The notes below the pieces were generated by a model. It was not told where the DNA came from and did no database searches. It saw only the letters and a program-made list of their open reading frames with translations. A stretch of DNA of 64,000 nt from a virus, in the IMG/VR virus record IMGVR_UViG_3300044904_000102, positions 1 to 64,000 of that record, one strand, 5' to 3'. Position 1 is the stretch's first letter, and each line of letters begins with the position of its first letter. Position numbers and translations under genes: made by a program. Below are positions 4,188 to 8,725 of the stretch, in pieces.

Positions 4188-4345
4188 GTCTCAAATAAAC
4201 CCTTGACAGTGAGACAGATACAAGCGCATGTTGAAGGCTGACTGATTCCGTTCTCGGCCCTTTCCCAGGGACAGAACGCTGGAGTGCTGAAGCGCAGGAC
4301 CAATAGGCCCGCTCGGCTGCAAGGCTGGGCGGGCCTTTGGATTTG
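4188..4345 (+). promoter_or_regulatory. Structured leader upstream of portal gene
   Basis: 158 bases without a gene. Two stem-loops are visible: 4249-4278 (CGTTCT/AGAACG enclosing CCCT/AGGG) and 4305-4336 (8-bp perfect stem AGGCCCGC/GCGGGCCT, 16-nt loop) ending ten bases before the portal ATG. A TTGACA box lies at 4203-4208 but no good -10 box follows at 16-18 nt. The second hairpin ends in only three T residues, so attenuator, weak terminator or a translation-modulating structure are all possible. Confidence 0.4.
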
Positions 4346-7300
4346 ATGGCCAATAGCACCTCGATCATAATTCGCCCGCTCGGCCAGCTTGTGGCGGCGC
4401 TATCCCGCTACGGCCAGCAACTCTACCAACCTCCGAAAGACACGATCCGCGGCGTCGAGCCGGACACGTGGTATTCGCCCCTCCAACCAGTCAAGCCCAT
4501 TGGGCCGCCCGGGATCGAGCCGCGCGGCTTCCAGTATTATGCCGGGCAAAACCTCCTGTGGACGCCACGCGCGGATGCTGAGTATTCTGCGGCAGACCTG
4601 AAGGAGTTGGCGCGCTATCCGCTGGCGCGAATTGCCATCGAGAACGTCAAAGATGAACTCTGCAAGGCGAGCTGGCAGATCCAGCCGCGCCCTCAGCTGG
4701 GAGAATCGCGCAAGGCGGCGACGAAGCGGGGCCTGGAGGATGTGAACCTTCTCAAGCTGAATAAGTTTTTTGAAATGCCGGACCGCGAGCATACGTGGCC
4801 TGAATGGCTGCGGCCGCTCTTGGAAGACATGCTGGTGATCGACGCCTGGTCTATTTTAATTAGAAAAACTTTCAGCGGAGAGGTGGTCGAGCTTATTGGT
4901 CTTCGAGGGGATTCGATTGTCAGATACATCGACGAGAACGGCTTCACGCCGCTGCCCCCCGAGCCGGCCTATGCGCAATTATGGTGGGGGATCCCGCTCA
5001 TTAACCTCTCGACCGACCAACTAGTTTACAAGCCCCGCAACATCGTGCCCCGCAATACCATTGCCTCTCAGCTTTACGGAATGTCGCCATGCGAGCAACT
5101 GGCTCCTGAAATTGAAATTGGAATAAAGCGACTAGCGTTCATTTCTGCCTATTATTCCGATGGCTCAGTCCCGGGCGCCATGCAAGTTGTCCCCAAGGGC
5201 GTCCCAACCGAGAAGATCGCCGAAGCGATGCAATGGATGAACTCCGAGCTGGCGGGGAATCTGGCGAAGCGGCGGCAGTGGCAACTGATCCAGGGATGGA
5301 AGGACGAGGGCAAGGACGAGCAGATTATCTTTCCGAAGGAGCCACTTCTTGCTGACCTCTTTGATGAGCAGCACACCCGAAGGATCGCCTTCGGCTTCGG
5401 CATTTCTCCGCAACGATTGATGCGGCAGATGAATCGGGCTGCTGCCCAGGCAAGCCAGGAGGCGGCTGACATTGAAGGACTGCTGCCGTATTTCTCATCC
5501 CTCAAAGCGCTGATGGATTTCATCATCCGGCGCAAGATGGGCTTCGATGCTTATGAGATGGTCTTCGATCCCCTGGCTGAGCCCGACCCATCAAAGCAGG
5601 CCGAGACGATCAAGATATACGTGAGCGGTGGCGTGTTGACGCCGAACGAGGGCCGCGAGCGGTTGGGCGAAGAGGCGCGGTCGGAGCCCGAGGCCGACAT
5701 GCTGGGCATCGTGACCGGCACTGGGTTTGTGCCGCTGGGTGGGGCAGGCGGCCTATCTACACCAGCGCCGACACCGCCGAAGTCCGGGGAAGGAGTTACC
5801 GATGGAATTCCTGATAAGGGAAAGGGTGGAGCGGGAGCATCAGGCGGCGACGAAGAGCTTGACGCCGACGGCAAGCCCATTGTCGCCGACGGCCGTGGCC
5901 AGCCCCGCAAGCCTGCCAGCGCCAACAAGCCCAACGGTGGCGCGGCGGCGAAAGCGCAGACGGAAAACCGGCCCATCGGGTTCGCGACGGGCACAGTCTT
6001 AACCGAGTCTGCGCCGCCTGAGCATGGAGTACTTACTATTGCAGCAGCCAGCGGCGAGCATTTCATCAAAGCCAAGCCGCAGCCGCGAGAGGTGCCTGTA
6101 ATTCATCCCGGGCGATTGCTCCCGCCGTCCATCCTGGCGCGCCACAAGATGGAGCGCGACCTCACGAAAATCTTCCGCACCATGCACCGGAAGACGACAA
6201 AGGTTATGGCTGCGGCGCTGGGCCTTCCGCACGGTCACTTGGCAAAGGCCGAGCCGGACGCCGATGCAACCCTCCGGGAGGTCATGGACAGTCTTGCCGC
6301 CGAGTGGGAAACGATTGCCCGGTTGGCGAAGAAACCTCTCACGGATGCGGCCCTGGCGGGAGCTTCTAAGGGGGCGCTTGAACTGGAGATTTCAGCTGAG
6401 GACATGCTGACCGGCATCAACGAGACGGCGCGCAAATGGGCCTCGAACCGGGCGGCCGAGCTGGTGGGGATGCGGCTGACGCCTGAAGGCAAGTTCATCG
6501 TCAACCCGAATCCCAAGTGGGCGATCAGCGACACGACGCGCGACAAACTGCGCTCCGTTATCACGGACGTGTTCGGACAAGAGGGCAAGATCACCCTGCG
6601 TGACGTGGAGAATCGCATCGAGCAGTCGGGCGTTTTCTCGGACGTGCGAGCCTCGACGATCGCGCGCAACGAGATCGCCCGGGCGCAGACGCAGGGCAAC
6701 CTTAAGAGCTGGCGGGAATCCGGGTTGGTGCAGAAGGTGTCATGGGAACTATCGGAGGACCACGACAAAGACGATATTTGCAATGAACTGGAAGGCCAGT
6801 ATGACATCAACGACGTCCCGGACCTGCCGGCTCATGTAAATTGCTGCCTACCTGGAACTGTAGTAACGGCCTGTGGCGGCATTGCGGCGCAGCTTTCGCG
6901 GCGTTACAAGGGGAAGGCCATTGTAATCGGGACCGAGACGGGCGAACACCTCGCCGTGACTCCAAACCATCCTGTACTCACGGGGCGAGGACTTGTCGGA
7001 GCCGGAGTTCTGCGCAAGGGCGATTATGTGTTTCGCAGCGGGACGCCACGACTTGCAGCCCTGATTATTGACCCAGACCACGACAACGTGCCAACCGTGA
7101 TTGAGGAGATAGGCCGTGCGCTTCTGGAAGCGGGAGGCGTGAGTACCGGAGGAATGCCAATTTCCGCCGAAGATTTCCACGGCGACGGAATCGTTGACGG
7201 CGAGGTCAATATTGTATGGTCCGCAGACTTTCTGGAATTGGATAGAGCATCCCGAAAGAAGCGCGGCCATTTTTCGCTCGTAGCTCGTGATATGGCGCAC

Positions 7301-7708
7301 GGCATTGGCTTCCCGGCCTCTCGCCCTGCGGCACAGGTCGGAGAAGGTCCGCTTGCTGCCACGGACAGCAGCGTGGGCAGCCGCAGCCATCGCGCTGCGC
7401 CTCTCGGGACTGCGACGGCTGTTGAGGATGAGCTGCATTTCAGTGAAAGTTCTGATTCTGAACCCGTGACGCTTAAACAACTCGCGAATCGTGAGACTGT
7501 GACAGCCAAAAGTTTTGGCGATATCGACCGAAGACTCGCCGGCCTCATATCGGCGGTAGAGGTCGTTGACATCTCCGAAATTGATTTTGAGGGGCATGTC
7601 GGCAATCTCCAGACAGGAACAGGATTTTATTTCACAGACGGAATTTTAACACACAACTGCCTGTGCAGCATCGTGCTGGCCGAACCGTCCGATGAGGGAG
7701 CGGAGTAG
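4346..7708 (+). CDS. Portal-MuF fusion protein containing an intein
   Basis: Forms the dodecameric portal vertex; the C-terminal MuF-like part is a minor head component. The first ~480 residues read as a phage portal (e.g. WTPRADAEYSAADLKELARYPL, FGISPQRLMRQMNRAAA); a Gly/Pro-rich linker follows, then a MuF domain (about 590-845) with ARNEIARAQT and PAHVN. Residues 833-1104 are an intein; splicing would restore HVNCLCSIV, the conserved H-x-N-C-x-C end of MuF. After splicing about 848 residues remain. ATG 4346 is preferred, TTG 4337 is possible; no strong Shine-Dalgarno is visible. Portal and MuF in one polypeptide is less common than separate genes. Confidence 0.9.
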   Translation: MANSTSIIIRPLGQLVAALSRYGQQLYQPPKDTIRGVEPDTWYSPLQPVKPIGPPGIEPRGFQYYAGQNLLWTPRADAEYSAADLKELARYPLARIAIENVKDELCKASWQIQPRPQLGESRKAATKRGLEDVNLLKLNKFFEMPDREHTWPEWLRPLLEDMLVIDAWSILIRKTFSGEVVELIGLRGDSIVRYIDENGFTPLPPEPAYAQLWWGIPLINLSTDQLVYKPRNIVPRNTIASQLYGMSPCEQLAPEIEIGIKRLAFISAYYSDGSVPGAMQVVPKGVPTEKIAEAMQWMNSELAGNLAKRRQWQLIQGWKDEGKDEQIIFPKEPLLADLFDEQHTRRIAFGFGISPQRLMRQMNRAAAQASQEAADIEGLLPYFSSLKALMDFIIRRKMGFDAYEMVFDPLAEPDPSKQAETIKIYVSGGVLTPNEGRERLGEEARSEPEADMLGIVTGTGFVPLGGAGGLSTPAPTPPKSGEGVTDGIPDKGKGGAGASGGDEELDADGKPIVADGRGQPRKPASANKPNGGAAAKAQTENRPIGFATGTVLTESAPPEHGVLTIAAASGEHFIKAKPQPREVPVIHPGRLLPPSILARHKMERDLTKIFRTMHRKTTKVMAAALGLPHGHLAKAEPDADATLREVMDSLAAEWETIARLAKKPLTDAALAGASKGALELEISAEDMLTGINETARKWASNRAAELVGMRLTPEGKFIVNPNPKWAISDTTRDKLRSVITDVFGQEGKITLRDVENRIEQSGVFSDVRASTIARNEIARAQTQGNLKSWRESGLVQKVSWELSEDHDKDDICNELEGQYDINDVPDLPAHVNCCLPGTVVTACGGIAAQLSRRYKGKAIVIGTETGEHLAVTPNHPVLTGRGLVGAGVLRKGDYVFRSGTPRLAALIIDPDHDNVPTVIEEIGRALLEAGGVSTGGMPISAEDFHGDGIVDGEVNIVWSADFLELDRASRKKRGHFSLVARDMAHGIGFPASRPAAQVGEGPLAATDSSVGSRSHRAAPLGTATAVEDELHFSESSDSEPVTLKQLANRETVTAKSFGDIDRRLAGLISAVEVVDISEIDFEGHVGNLQTGTGFYFTDGILTHNCLCSIVLAEPSDEGAE
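6842..7657 (+). mobile_element. Intein in the MuF domain of the portal protein
   Basis: 272-residue protein-splicing element. Seen: N-terminal block A CCLPGTVV beginning with Cys; block B TPNHPVLT with Thr and His; C-terminal block F/G VGNLQTGTGFYFTDGILTHN followed by Cys(+1). The first of the two N-terminal cysteines is taken as residue 1 because G5-T6 then align with usual inteins and the exteins join as HVN-CLCS. All splice residues (C1, block-B T and H, penultimate H, terminal N, C+1) are present. No LAGLIDADG or HNH domain is read in the sense frame; instead the opposite strand encodes an endonuclease. Probably splicing-competent. Confidence 0.88.
6848..7597 (-). CDS. Antisense homing endonuclease (Vsr/EDxHD-like) inside the intein
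   Basis: 249-residue frame on the minus strand lying wholly inside the intein-coding DNA. Residues about 20-50 (ESSVDIAKTFGCHSLTIREL) look like a helix-turn-helix; 104-178 match the Vsr/DUF559/EDxHD nuclease pattern: SYERKM (E107), CGPYNIDLAV (D131), SVAVEIFGGNWH (E141, H148), then R-x2-K and GWHVVVVWV. A GGAG Shine-Dalgarno lies nine bases before ATG 7597. The last ~70 residues, antisense to intein blocks A and B, are basic and may be non-essential. Such enzymes cut unoccupied alleles and drive homing. Known families: free-standing or split-intein-associated EDxHD nucleases; antisense nesting is the odd point. Confidence 0.8.
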   Translation of the reverse strand: MPLKINFGDVNDLYRRYEAGESSVDIAKTFGCHSLTIRELFKRHGFRIRTFTEMQLILNSRRSPERRSAMAAAAHAAVRGSKRTFSDLCRRARGREANAVRHITSYERKMAALLSGCSIQFQKVCGPYNIDLAVNDSVAVEIFGGNWHSSGTHASRFQKRTAYLLNHGWHVVVVWVNNQGCKSWRPAAKHIIALAQNSGSDKSSPREYRMVWSHGEVFARLGPDYNGLPLVTPRKLRRNAATGRYYSSR

Positions 7709-7710
7709 TA

Positions 7711-7830
7711 ATGCGCCATGCAAACGAAGTGCGGAAAGAACCAAGCATGAGGCCAGCGGCTCCAAAGCGACCGGTCCCGCAGCCGGGAATCACGACGGCG
7801 CTGGGTTTCAACTTTTGCGATTCGAGGTGA
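7711..7830 (+). CDS. Possible 39-residue peptide
   Basis: Short frame starting three bases after the portal stop (TAGTAATG), with a purine-rich stretch GGGAGCGGAG upstream. The product is basic and proline-rich with no recognised domain. It fills the gap between the portal gene and the next membrane gene, which is the main argument for it. Low confidence. Confidence 0.25.
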   Translation: MRHANEVRKEPSMRPAAPKRPVPQPGITTALGFNFCDSR

Positions 7831-7834
7831 CACG

Positions 7835-7990
7835 ATGACGGCTCCATGGAGTTTGATTTGTCTGGTTCTCGCGCTGGTGCTGTTCGCACTTGGCGCCTTC
7901 GCGTGGCCGATCCCGTTCGACGGCTGGCGCGTGAAGATCGTCTCGGCGGGCCTGATGTTCCTGGTCCTGTCGCAGCTGATTCGGGCTTGA
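7835..7990 (+). CDS. Small two-helix membrane protein
   Basis: 51 residues with two hydrophobic segments (LICLVLALVLFALGAFAW and VSAGLMFLVLSQLI) separated by PIPFDGWRVK, which suggests a hairpin in the membrane. Followed nine bases later by another small membrane protein. No function can be given from sequence; the pair sits between the portal and a methyltransferase. Confidence 0.55.
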   Translation: MTAPWSLICLVLALVLFALGAFAWPIPFDGWRVKIVSAGLMFLVLSQLIRA

Positions 7991-7999
7991 GAGGGGAAG

Positions 8000-8155
8000 A
8001 TGCTGCTTCTGATCATCATCTTGATCCTCCTGTTCGGCGTGCCCACCTTCGGCTACTACCGCGGCGGGCCCGCATGGGGAGGCGGCGCGCTGGGATTGAT
8101 CCTCGTCATCGTGCTGATCCTCTGGCTTCTCGGGCAGATTCAATTCGTGCGCTGA
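8000..8155 (+). CDS. DUF3309-like small membrane protein
   Basis: 51 residues with the layout of DUF3309: hydrophobic N-terminus (LLLIIILILLFGVPTF), a central GYYRGGPAWGGG motif, and a second hydrophobic helix GLILVIVLILWLLG. DUF3309 proteins are small bacterial membrane proteins of unknown role; finding one in a phage head region is unusual. AGAGGGGAAG precedes ATG 8000 as Shine-Dalgarno. Confidence 0.65.
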   Translation: MLLLIIILILLFGVPTFGYYRGGPAWGGGALGLILVIVLILWLLGQIQFVR

Positions 8156-8173
8156 AGACGTTGAAAGAATGCG

Positions 8174-8725
8174 ATGGCATCCGCAACCGTAAAACTCGCG
8201 TGGGATTACCGGGGCGTTCGCGTTGCCCCTTCGGGTGGGGATGGCCAAACGTACGAAGCCGCCGCCGCGTGGCTCGCCGAGCTGGGTTGCAATGAAGTCC
8301 AAGACTGGGGATGCGGCACAGCCTGGGCGAGGAAAATCTTCGTGCAGCGCGGGATCAGATACGTCGGGCTCGACATTGCTCCCGGCTTCGCCGATGAGAT
8401 CGTGAATCTGGTGAATTTCGTGGGGCAGACGGACGGCATCGTCATGCGGCACGTGCTGGAGCACAACTACGCGTGGAAAGACATCCTGCGCAACGCGCTC
8501 GCATCTTGCCGCCACCTGGCGCTGGTGATCTTCACGCCGTTCACCAGGGGCGAAGAGTGCCGCCTTGCCTGGAATGCGCGCGAGGGCGTCCCTGACCTGT
8601 CTTTGAACAAGACCGAGTTGACAGGCATCCTCGAGCAGTGGAAAGAGAAGCGGCTCAAAACGCCGACCCAGTACGGAGAAGAAACCATCTTCTTCGTTGG
8701 CGGAGAACGCGATGCCGTACTCTAA
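8174..8725 (+). CDS. SAM-dependent methyltransferase (class I)
   Basis: 183 residues with a Rossmann-type methyltransferase core: motif I VQDWGCGTAWARK (about 42-54), acidic loop YVGLDIAP (63-70), and IVMRHVLEHN (about 87-96) followed by LALVIFTPF, typical of a phage methyltransferase family seen near head genes. Substrate unknown. It overlaps the protease gene by 14 bases. Codons 58-153 (8345-8632) recur as an exact, circularly permuted copy inside the ParB-like gene at 56.8 kb; here the sequence is contiguous and ordered as expected for the family, so this is the donor or ancestral copy. Confidence 0.8.
   Translation: MASATVKLAWDYRGVRVAPSGGDGQTYEAAAAWLAELGCNEVQDWGCGTAWARKIFVQRGIRYVGLDIAPGFADEIVNLVNFVGQTDGIVMRHVLEHNYAWKDILRNALASCRHLALVIFTPFTRGEECRLAWNAREGVPDLSLNKTELTGILEQWKEKRLKTPTQYGEETIFFVGGERDAVL
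8345..8632 (+). repeat. Source copy of a 288 bp permuted repeat
   Basis: Two adjoining blocks, 8345-8512 (168 bp) and 8513-8632 (120 bp), are found base-for-base at 57149-57316 and 57029-57148, i.e. in swapped order with no gap or loss. Identity was checked by reading both copies in full for the 120 bp block and across the junctions and body of the 168 bp block. Confidence 0.95.

Follow-up and report, generated by a model that had tools for sequence, protein, structure and literature searches.

A candidate mobile intein in a phage portal-MuF gene with its homing endonuclease gene on the opposite strand of the same codons

The intein that interrupts the portal-MuF gene in IMG/VR virus record IMGVR_UViG_3300044904_000102 appears to be a mobile intein whose own coding DNA also holds, codon on codon on the other strand, the gene for its homing endonuclease (HEN). 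We put the probability of this reading, drawn from the window (positions 1 to 64,000 of the record, 64,000 nucleotides) and from related sequences, at roughly 0.9, and these comparisons lend good support to the view that the element is a working mobile intein. Translation of the sense strand would give a portal-MuF precursor in which the two ends of the intein form a Hint domain that excises itself by splicing; the middle would be a mostly disordered linker that need only stay open. Antisense translation starting in block F would yield a helix-turn-helix (HTH)-Vsr/EDxHD nuclease. This enzyme would cut intein-less MuF genes at AHPN^C, and repair from a filled copy would install intein and endonuclease as one unit. 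Both proteins have independent homology and predicted folds.

Table 1. Coordinates of the intein, the antisense gene and their parts in the window.
Feature	Position	Strand	Basis or remark
Portal-MuF host gene, interrupted by the intein	4337-7708	+	Portal fused to MuF-like minor head protein; start codon uncertain
Intein, 272 aa, at MuF motif AHVN^C(L)C	6842-7657	+	Intein_splicing; NCBIfam intein_Nterm; predicted Hint fold
N-terminal splicing region, blocks A and B, TPNH	6842-7030	+	Sense-strand selection; sense third position free (codon-position test)
C-terminal splicing region, blocks F and G, GHVGNLQT ... GILTHN	7571-7657	+	Sense-strand selection (codon-position test)
Cys+1 of the C-extein	7658-7660	+	Sequence
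HEN gene, 249 aa, wholly inside the intein	6848-7597	-	Profiles, model, selection
Shine-Dalgarno GGAG (sense Leu codon CTC of block F and next base)	7607-7610	-	Leu codon bias
HEN start ATG (sense His codon CAT, block F)	7595-7597	-	CAT bias
HTH domain, HEN residues 10-43	7469-7570	-	Model; HTH_38 match
Vsr/EDxHD nuclease domain, HEN residues 102-200	6998-7294	-	Matches to 1cw0 and 3r3p; conservation
Catalytic-motif residue E107	7277-7279	-	Conservation
Catalytic-motif residue D131	7205-7207	-	Conservation
Catalytic-motif residue E141	7175-7177	-	Conservation
Catalytic-motif residue H148	7154-7156	-	Conservation
Dual-coded segment, sense EDFHGD, antisense VAVEIF	7169-7186	both	HEN-synonymous, sense-changing alternatives avoided
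HEN stop TAG (sense Leu CTA, block A)	6848-6850	-	Leu codon bias in relatives

On the sense strand the host gene is a single open frame, contiguous across the insert, with Pfam matches to Phage_portal (9.6e-12), Phage_Mu_F (3.1e-5) and Intein_splicing (1.3e-4). The insert starts with C-CLPGTVV and closes with GILTHN, and the splice motifs of a Cys-type intein that an earlier note on this DNA had claimed are all present: Cys1 at 6842, the block B TxxH (TPNH), THN, and then C at 7658. T39, H42, N271 and C272 are invariant in 43 relatives, and the insertion site is common to most relatives. The intein is predicted to adopt the Hint fold, its best intein match being the Mtu RecA intein (Z 12.7, 106 residues, rmsd 1.8). 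That note had seen no sense-strand endonuclease; searches of the middle of the intein against Pfam and NCBIfam profiles gave no endonuclease match, and sense residues 133-220 are predicted to be disordered (pLDDT < 50). A sense-strand endonuclease in the linker was rejected for want of a profile match, and a conventional mobile intein for want of an in-frame match together with the predicted disorder. A split intein with a separate EDxHD gene was rejected because the sense ORF, 4337-7708, is contiguous and the endonuclease overlaps it; a group I intron with an antisense endonuclease, because the sense frame is open across the insert in 133/133 distinct sequences and the Hint fold is predicted.

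On the other strand, the 249-codon frame described in the earlier note begins with ATG and runs in codon register with the intein frame. Its product matches MTES_1575 (7.6e-7), DUF559 (0.006) and an HTH profile (0.01), the last in line with the HTH-like start read from the letters, as well as the PADLOC homing-endonuclease model (1.3e-4). Structure-profile matches were 3hrl (6.5e-4), 1cw0 (0.014) and 3r3p (0.03). The AlphaFold model resembles Vsr (1cw0, Z 10.8) and I-Bth0305I (3r3p, Z 9.1); by this model the antisense gene has the Vsr/I-Bth0305I fold. The four proposed motif residues are conserved: in an alignment of 83 relatives D131 and E141 never vary, position 107 is E or D in 82/83 and H148 is retained in 65/83, with the full E/D/E/H set in the window's HEN and in 64/83 relatives. 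H148 is replaced in 18/83, including all ten Guernseyvirinae, in which purifying selection on HEN persists. The HTH is doubled or tripled in some relatives.

The strand under selection was read from the codon positions left free in 71 diverse relatives. At sense residues 1-62 and 243-272 the free position is sense position 3, and at 63-242 it is sense position 1, which is position 3 of HEN (column sign tests, p 2e-8, 0.016 and 9e-10). Of the recent changes in the core, 169 were HEN-silent and sense-changing where 67.8 were expected, and 49 were HEN-changing and sense-silent where 66.6 were expected. In the splicing blocks the pattern is reversed, and substitutions are synonymous for the intein. 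Judged from the free codon positions and these substitutions, the antisense frame is a real gene on which purifying selection acts. The view that one stretch of DNA must satisfy two proteins needs refining: selection on the splicing blocks is seen on the sense strand and selection on HEN on the other, and competition between the proteins does not extend along the entire stretch. In the aligned sequences constraint is mostly partitioned, and dual coding is found mainly at sense EDFHGD/antisense VAVEIF, where A139 is GCC in 66 cases and GCT in 1, and V140 is GTG in 62 and GTA in 1. Predicted disorder, at HEN 221-236 (pLDDT < 50) and sense 133-220, agrees with the partition.

An open antisense frame could be a mere shadow, the intein being the sole gene and the frame open because of its in-register position beneath a conserved protein. 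Antisense frames in this register are more often open than those in others and owe a degree of similarity to the sense protein, and the C-terminal 60 residues of HEN are truly shadow. Both frames are kept open in the 133 distinct relatives collected. For loci retrieved by the sense protein an open sense frame is partly a matter of construction; the 59 loci retrieved by the antisense protein alone are free of that, and in 59/59 the intein frame is fully open too. The in-register opposite frame is open over HEN in 111/111 loci and the other two opposite frames in 0/111. The 133 distinct HEN DNAs contain 2129 Leu and 1820 Ser codons, and none of these is TTA, CTA or TCA, which would be stops for the intein frame, where codon usage of neighbouring genes predicts 296 and 191 such Leu and Ser codons. 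The earlier note would have taken a conserved sense linker over an antisense frame broken by stops as a sign of a shadow; among 66 distinct relatives, stops break the sense frame in 0/66 and the antisense frame in 3/66. The register-specific openness, the codon-position result and the avoidance of stop codons led us to reject the shadow as scarcely credible, and it is also opposed by the Vsr/DUF559 homology and fold of HEN, by the HEN-silent, sense-changing substitutions in the middle, by the selected start, Shine-Dalgarno and stop, and by the free-standing relatives of a nested zinc-finger type described below. That EIFGGNWH is invariant in the first set of relatives is partly by construction, as this peptide served as a search pattern, and the conclusions draw on other positions and on relatives reached by other means.

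The putative HEN start, Shine-Dalgarno and stop are written through synonymous codons in blocks F and A of the intein (p from about 1e-9 to 1e-13). The His codon at the start is CAT in 53 relatives and CAC in 5, against 370:342 for other intein His codons (p 6e-10). At the Shine-Dalgarno, which the earlier note had also seen, the Leu codon is CTC in 54/73 cases (635/1953 elsewhere), and a match of at least 5 nt precedes 38/69 HEN starts as compared with 19/268 internal ATGs. Leu at intein residue 2 is TTA or CTA in 20/26 relatives against a background of 14% (p 9e-13), and the HEN stop lies inside the intein in 77/83. A consensus scan of 7400-8400 found no minus-strand sigma-70-like promoter.

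Complete antisense nesting, raised in the earlier note for this virus, is not unique to it: more than 100 related sequences have the same arrangement. Many sequenced isolates are carriers, among them Jerseyvirus, Snoke and P. aeruginosa, Klebsiella, Gordonia and Mycobacterium phages, and the nuclease is annotated in none of these. No free-standing HTH-Vsr relative occurs among the 133 distinct sequences; the contig scan, with EIFGGNWH as its sole pattern, yielded for that reason a single locus, and free-standing forms may therefore exist. Two other endonuclease types are nested likewise. In another MuF intein it is a LAGLIDADG endonuclease, for whose relatives a viral scan found none, and in an intein at a second MuF site it is a zinc-finger Vsr endonuclease. 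Free-standing zinc-finger Vsr relatives exist, with stops in the opposite frame; in the zinc-finger Vsr relatives L205-L207 that frame is open and there are no intein motifs, so openness of the opposite frame alone is insufficient. Antisense nesting thus recurs, apparently with three origins or more, and the sharing of one register by three endonuclease types suggests that antisense coding codon on codon is an accessible route for new genes. We lean slightly towards a general, repeatedly evolved route to mobile inteins, in which unrelated endonucleases settle codon on codon where the linker can be free, many large phage inteins thought to be endonuclease-less carry one opposite, and opposite transcripts may part endonuclease from capsid-gene expression in time.

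The intein is precisely absent from near-identical phages, these being empty alleles of other carrier phages and not of the window's own gene. Between JBD88b (empty) and CF23a there is an 807-bp insert with flanks 95.7% identical, and JBD88b matches BR313c at 40/40 nt across the joined site; further pairs are Rofo (empty) with Fosterous and fEg-Eco19 (empty) with Snoke. The intact extein is thus known without the insertion in JBD88b, Rofo and fEg-Eco19. Such precise presence and absence is as expected of a mobile element. Precise loss, though expected only rarely, could also leave empty alleles. Identity in the left flank of the P. aeruginosa pair does not increase towards the site, giving no clear signature of co-conversion.

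Two further readings accept the antisense gene. It might be real and conserved yet have a function other than homing, for instance as a regulator that binds DNA, as a nuclease that interferes with competing phages or as a domesticated enzyme. The replacement of H148 under continued selection in the Guernseyvirinae fits such a role, and homing enzymes are also able to act in competition between phages. We nevertheless consider it unlikely, given the location inside an intein at one site, the scattered presence and absence with precise junctions, the homing-endonuclease relatives, the two other types nested similarly and the decay of HEN without loss of the intein, which is still open in the 3/66 broken cases and in the mini-intein L077. 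A little less likely still is that the element has by now reached fixation in most lineages, with HEN kept only through its overlap with the intein and mobility no longer driven. Carriers within one phage group are often similar, and a stop is present in the three cases above, as this would have it; yet in the middle it is HEN that is preserved and not the intein, and presence differs between near-identical phages. A mobile intein with an antisense homing endonuclease gene remains our preferred reading.

Conventional mobile inteins, such as PI-PfuI and the VMA inteins, contain an in-frame LAGLIDADG or HNH endonuclease domain. The present element shares with them the predicted Hint splicing domain, a conserved extein motif as its site, presence and absence in near-identical hosts and mini forms that lack HEN. 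Unlike theirs, which is on the same polypeptide and strand, its endonuclease would be a protein of its own, made from the opposite strand. In viruses, split inteins accompanied by free-standing EDxHD endonuclease genes, reportedly described by Dassa et al. in 2009, likewise bring together intein and Vsr-like endonuclease; the present intein is contiguous, and its coding DNA encloses the whole of the endonuclease gene. The new element would be a mobile element with protein splicing in which two genes use the same codons on opposite strands, and would rank with the clearer natural examples of a long overlap between antisense proteins for which selection has been mapped to each strand. No prior description was found in the open-access literature, subscription journals and most preprints being outside the scope of the search. 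The comparison brings to light genes left without annotation in many sequenced phages and opens dual coding to tests in laboratory phages.

The EDxHD homing endonuclease I-Bth0305I is encoded in a group I intron (PMC3943268). HEN resembles it and Vsr in predicted nuclease fold, in the motif E/D/E...H and in being joined to DNA-binding modules, but its gene is antisense within protein-coding DNA, and the number of HTH modules is one to three. Antisense homing endonuclease genes are also carried, in a P1 extension, by group I introns of nuclear rDNA, for example in Porphyra (PMC2585584). There, too, the endonuclease is opposite to the strand of the splicing element; that host is a non-coding RNA, whereas here the same codons are protein-coding on both strands. 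The arrangement is a possible explanation for phage inteins reported to be endonuclease-less. An intein in protein F of the Methylococcus capsulatus Mu-like prophage, and thus in a MuF protein as here, was reported to have no recognisable endonuclease, in an account that leaves out the antisense frame (PMC517821).

The intein interrupting the portal-MuF gene of this 65.7-kb virus record carries a second gene on its opposite strand. The endonuclease gene, including its stop codon, lies entirely within the intein, its codons exactly oppose intein codons, and GGAG is found 10-13 bases upstream of its ATG.

Features of the nested locus and of the second MuF insertion site
Feature	Position or locus	Strand	Remarks
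Portal-MuF fusion gene	4337-7708	+	interrupted by intein in MuF part
Intein	6842-7657	+	within MuF part of portal-MuF gene
Intein Cys1	6842	+	CCLPGTVV; CILPG or CLLPG in relatives
Intein motifs TPNH, block F GHVGNLQT, GILTHN	within 6842-7657	+	
Cys+1 of intein junction	7658	+	
Antisense endonuclease gene	6848-7597	-	249 aa, ATG start
Sense EDFHGD / antisense VAVEIF	7169-7186	both	codon-choice avoidance
Second MuF insertion site, zinc-finger Vsr type	relative loci L013/L199, L200, L202, L204		DDRxC^...HN^CxxC

Both strands encode a genuine protein. Intein profiles match the sense product; in its predicted model the two ends adopt a Hint fold, with the Mtu RecA intein matched at Z 12.7, and there is predicted disorder at residues 133-220. 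The antisense protein matches the MTES_1575, DUF559 and HTH profiles, and a PDB search with a profile of its family returned 3hrl, Vsr and I-Bth0305I. Its predicted model has a mean pLDDT of 85 and aligns with Vsr (Z 10.8) and I-Bth0305I (Z 9.1); model confidence is low only in the C-terminal part, which faces the N-terminal splicing blocks of the intein and in which residues 221-236 fall below pLDDT 50. Eighteen of 83 sequences carry a different residue at the motif histidine, H148; some copies of the endonuclease may therefore be inactive, or the role of the histidine may fall to another residue. The number of tandem HTH units varies from one to three (L078, L081, L062, L072, L073, L087 and other relative loci), and the sense intein linker grows in register with the extra units.

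When the antisense protein was used as the sole query, 59 loci from viral contigs were retrieved, and the opposite frame was open in the same register in all 59. Of 111 loci, every one has the in-register frame open and none has either of the other two opposite frames open. The codons TTA, CTA and TCA are absent from 133 distinct endonuclease DNAs, where about 487 would be expected from codon usage in the neighbouring gene. In nearly all loci the insertion is at the MuF motif AHPN^C...HN^CRC. Sequenced carriers include the phages Snoke, Salmonella Jerseyvirus isolates, Pantoea AH01, Cronobacter ES2, Klebsiella RCIP0015, Edwardsiella MSW-3, Mycobacterium Sejanus, and Gordonia Malisha, Fosterous and Keitabear, as well as P. 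aeruginosa BR313c, Aaphi23 and Vibrio 1.113. In the regions read, no endonuclease is annotated in any of these named phages; the usual labels are head protein, hypothetical protein and NAD+--asparagine ADP-ribosyltransferase.

Because the codons are exactly opposed, the third, free position in one protein corresponds to position 1 in the other. Among 71 diverse relatives, with sense residues counted from 6845, conservation was lowest at sense position 3 for residues 1-62 and for residues 243-272, and for residues 63-242 it was lowest at sense position 1, which is endonuclease position 3 (column sign tests, p 2e-8, 0.016 and 9e-10). Single changes in nine independent close pairs gave, in the core, 169 that are silent for the endonuclease and alter the sense protein (67.8 expected) and 49 that alter the endonuclease and are silent for the sense protein (66.6 expected), with the bias reversed in the splicing blocks; these tests are only partly corrected for shared ancestry, and the independent pairs and the diverse sets are concordant. 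The shared DNA is thus mostly partitioned between the two proteins, without double constraint throughout.

The EDFHGD/VAVEIF segment is genuinely dual-coded: it avoids codons that are synonymous for the endonuclease but would alter the sense protein, with counts of GCC 66 and GCT 1 for A139, GTG 62 and GTA 1 for V140, and ATC 51 and ATT 1 for I142. The segment and the nuclease core are retained in a 183-aa mini-intein (L077/L193) whose antisense gene has lost its HTH half. A role of the sense EDFHGD residues in the splicing domain is probable.

Signals of the endonuclease gene are placed inside the splicing blocks. Its start codon lies opposite the His codon of block F, where CAT occurs in 53 cases and CAC in 5; elsewhere the numbers are 370 and 342 (p 6e-10). 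In 54 of 73 cases the adjoining Leu is encoded by CTC, giving GAG or GGAGG on the opposite strand. Of 69 starts, 38 have a Shine-Dalgarno match of 5 nt or more in front of them, compared with 19 of 268 internal ATGs. The stop often lies opposite the Leu2 codon, which is TTA or CTA in 20 of 26 (background 14%, p 9e-13). The endonuclease therefore spans block F almost to Cys1.

Intein-less alleles occur in near-identical phages. Pseudomonas JBD88b lacks the 807-bp insert of CF23a, with flanks 95.7% identical, and matches BR313c at 40 of 40 bases over the joined site; Gordonia Rofo versus Fosterous and Escherichia fEg-Eco19 versus Snoke are further cases. No co-conversion tract was evident around the insertion. 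Similarity of the splicing blocks correlates with that of the endonuclease core among relatives (rho 0.27, 0 of 999 permutations). Of 66 sequences, 3 have a broken endonuclease frame and none a broken intein frame, and such decay beside an intact intein is what a homing cycle would predict.

The component parts, inteins and Vsr-like (EDxHD) or LAGLIDADG homing endonucleases, are already known. Antisense endonuclease genes occur in rDNA group I introns, where nothing else is coded (PMC2585584), and the Methylococcus capsulatus Bath genome is reported to have a Mu-like prophage MuF intein without a recognisable endonuclease (PMC517821). We found no description in the open-access literature searched of an intein with its endonuclease antisense in the same codons. 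We class the arrangement as a mobile intein with a new architecture, its splicing, antisense expression, cleavage and homing all being predicted.

Antisense nesting recurs, with at least three endonuclease types at two insertion sites. Gordonia phages Nordenberg and Barsten have an intein of a different class at the same MuF site, with an antisense LAGLIDADG-type endonuclease that matches PHROG 5046 (1.6e-15) and shares 32% identity with an annotated endonuclease of Cyanophage PP, which itself matches LAGLIDADG_1. PHROG 5046 is labelled HNH endonuclease; the Nordenberg/Barsten member and its Cyanophage PP relative have a LAGLIDADG-like motif. Between the two phages, changes in the core fall 43 times on sense position 1 and 9 times on sense position 3, with the reverse in both splicing regions, a pattern indicating that this endonuclease is under selection on the antisense strand. 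The MuF gene of L013 (L013/L199) is interrupted by a pair of inteins whose antisense endonucleases differ in architecture; the first is at a separate site, DDRT^C, and its antisense protein is of a zinc-finger plus Vsr/DUF559 type nested likewise in L200, L202/L203 and L204. These three relatives showed 308 endonuclease-silent versus 32 intein-silent changes. In most free-standing zinc-finger Vsr relatives the opposite frame is interrupted by stops.
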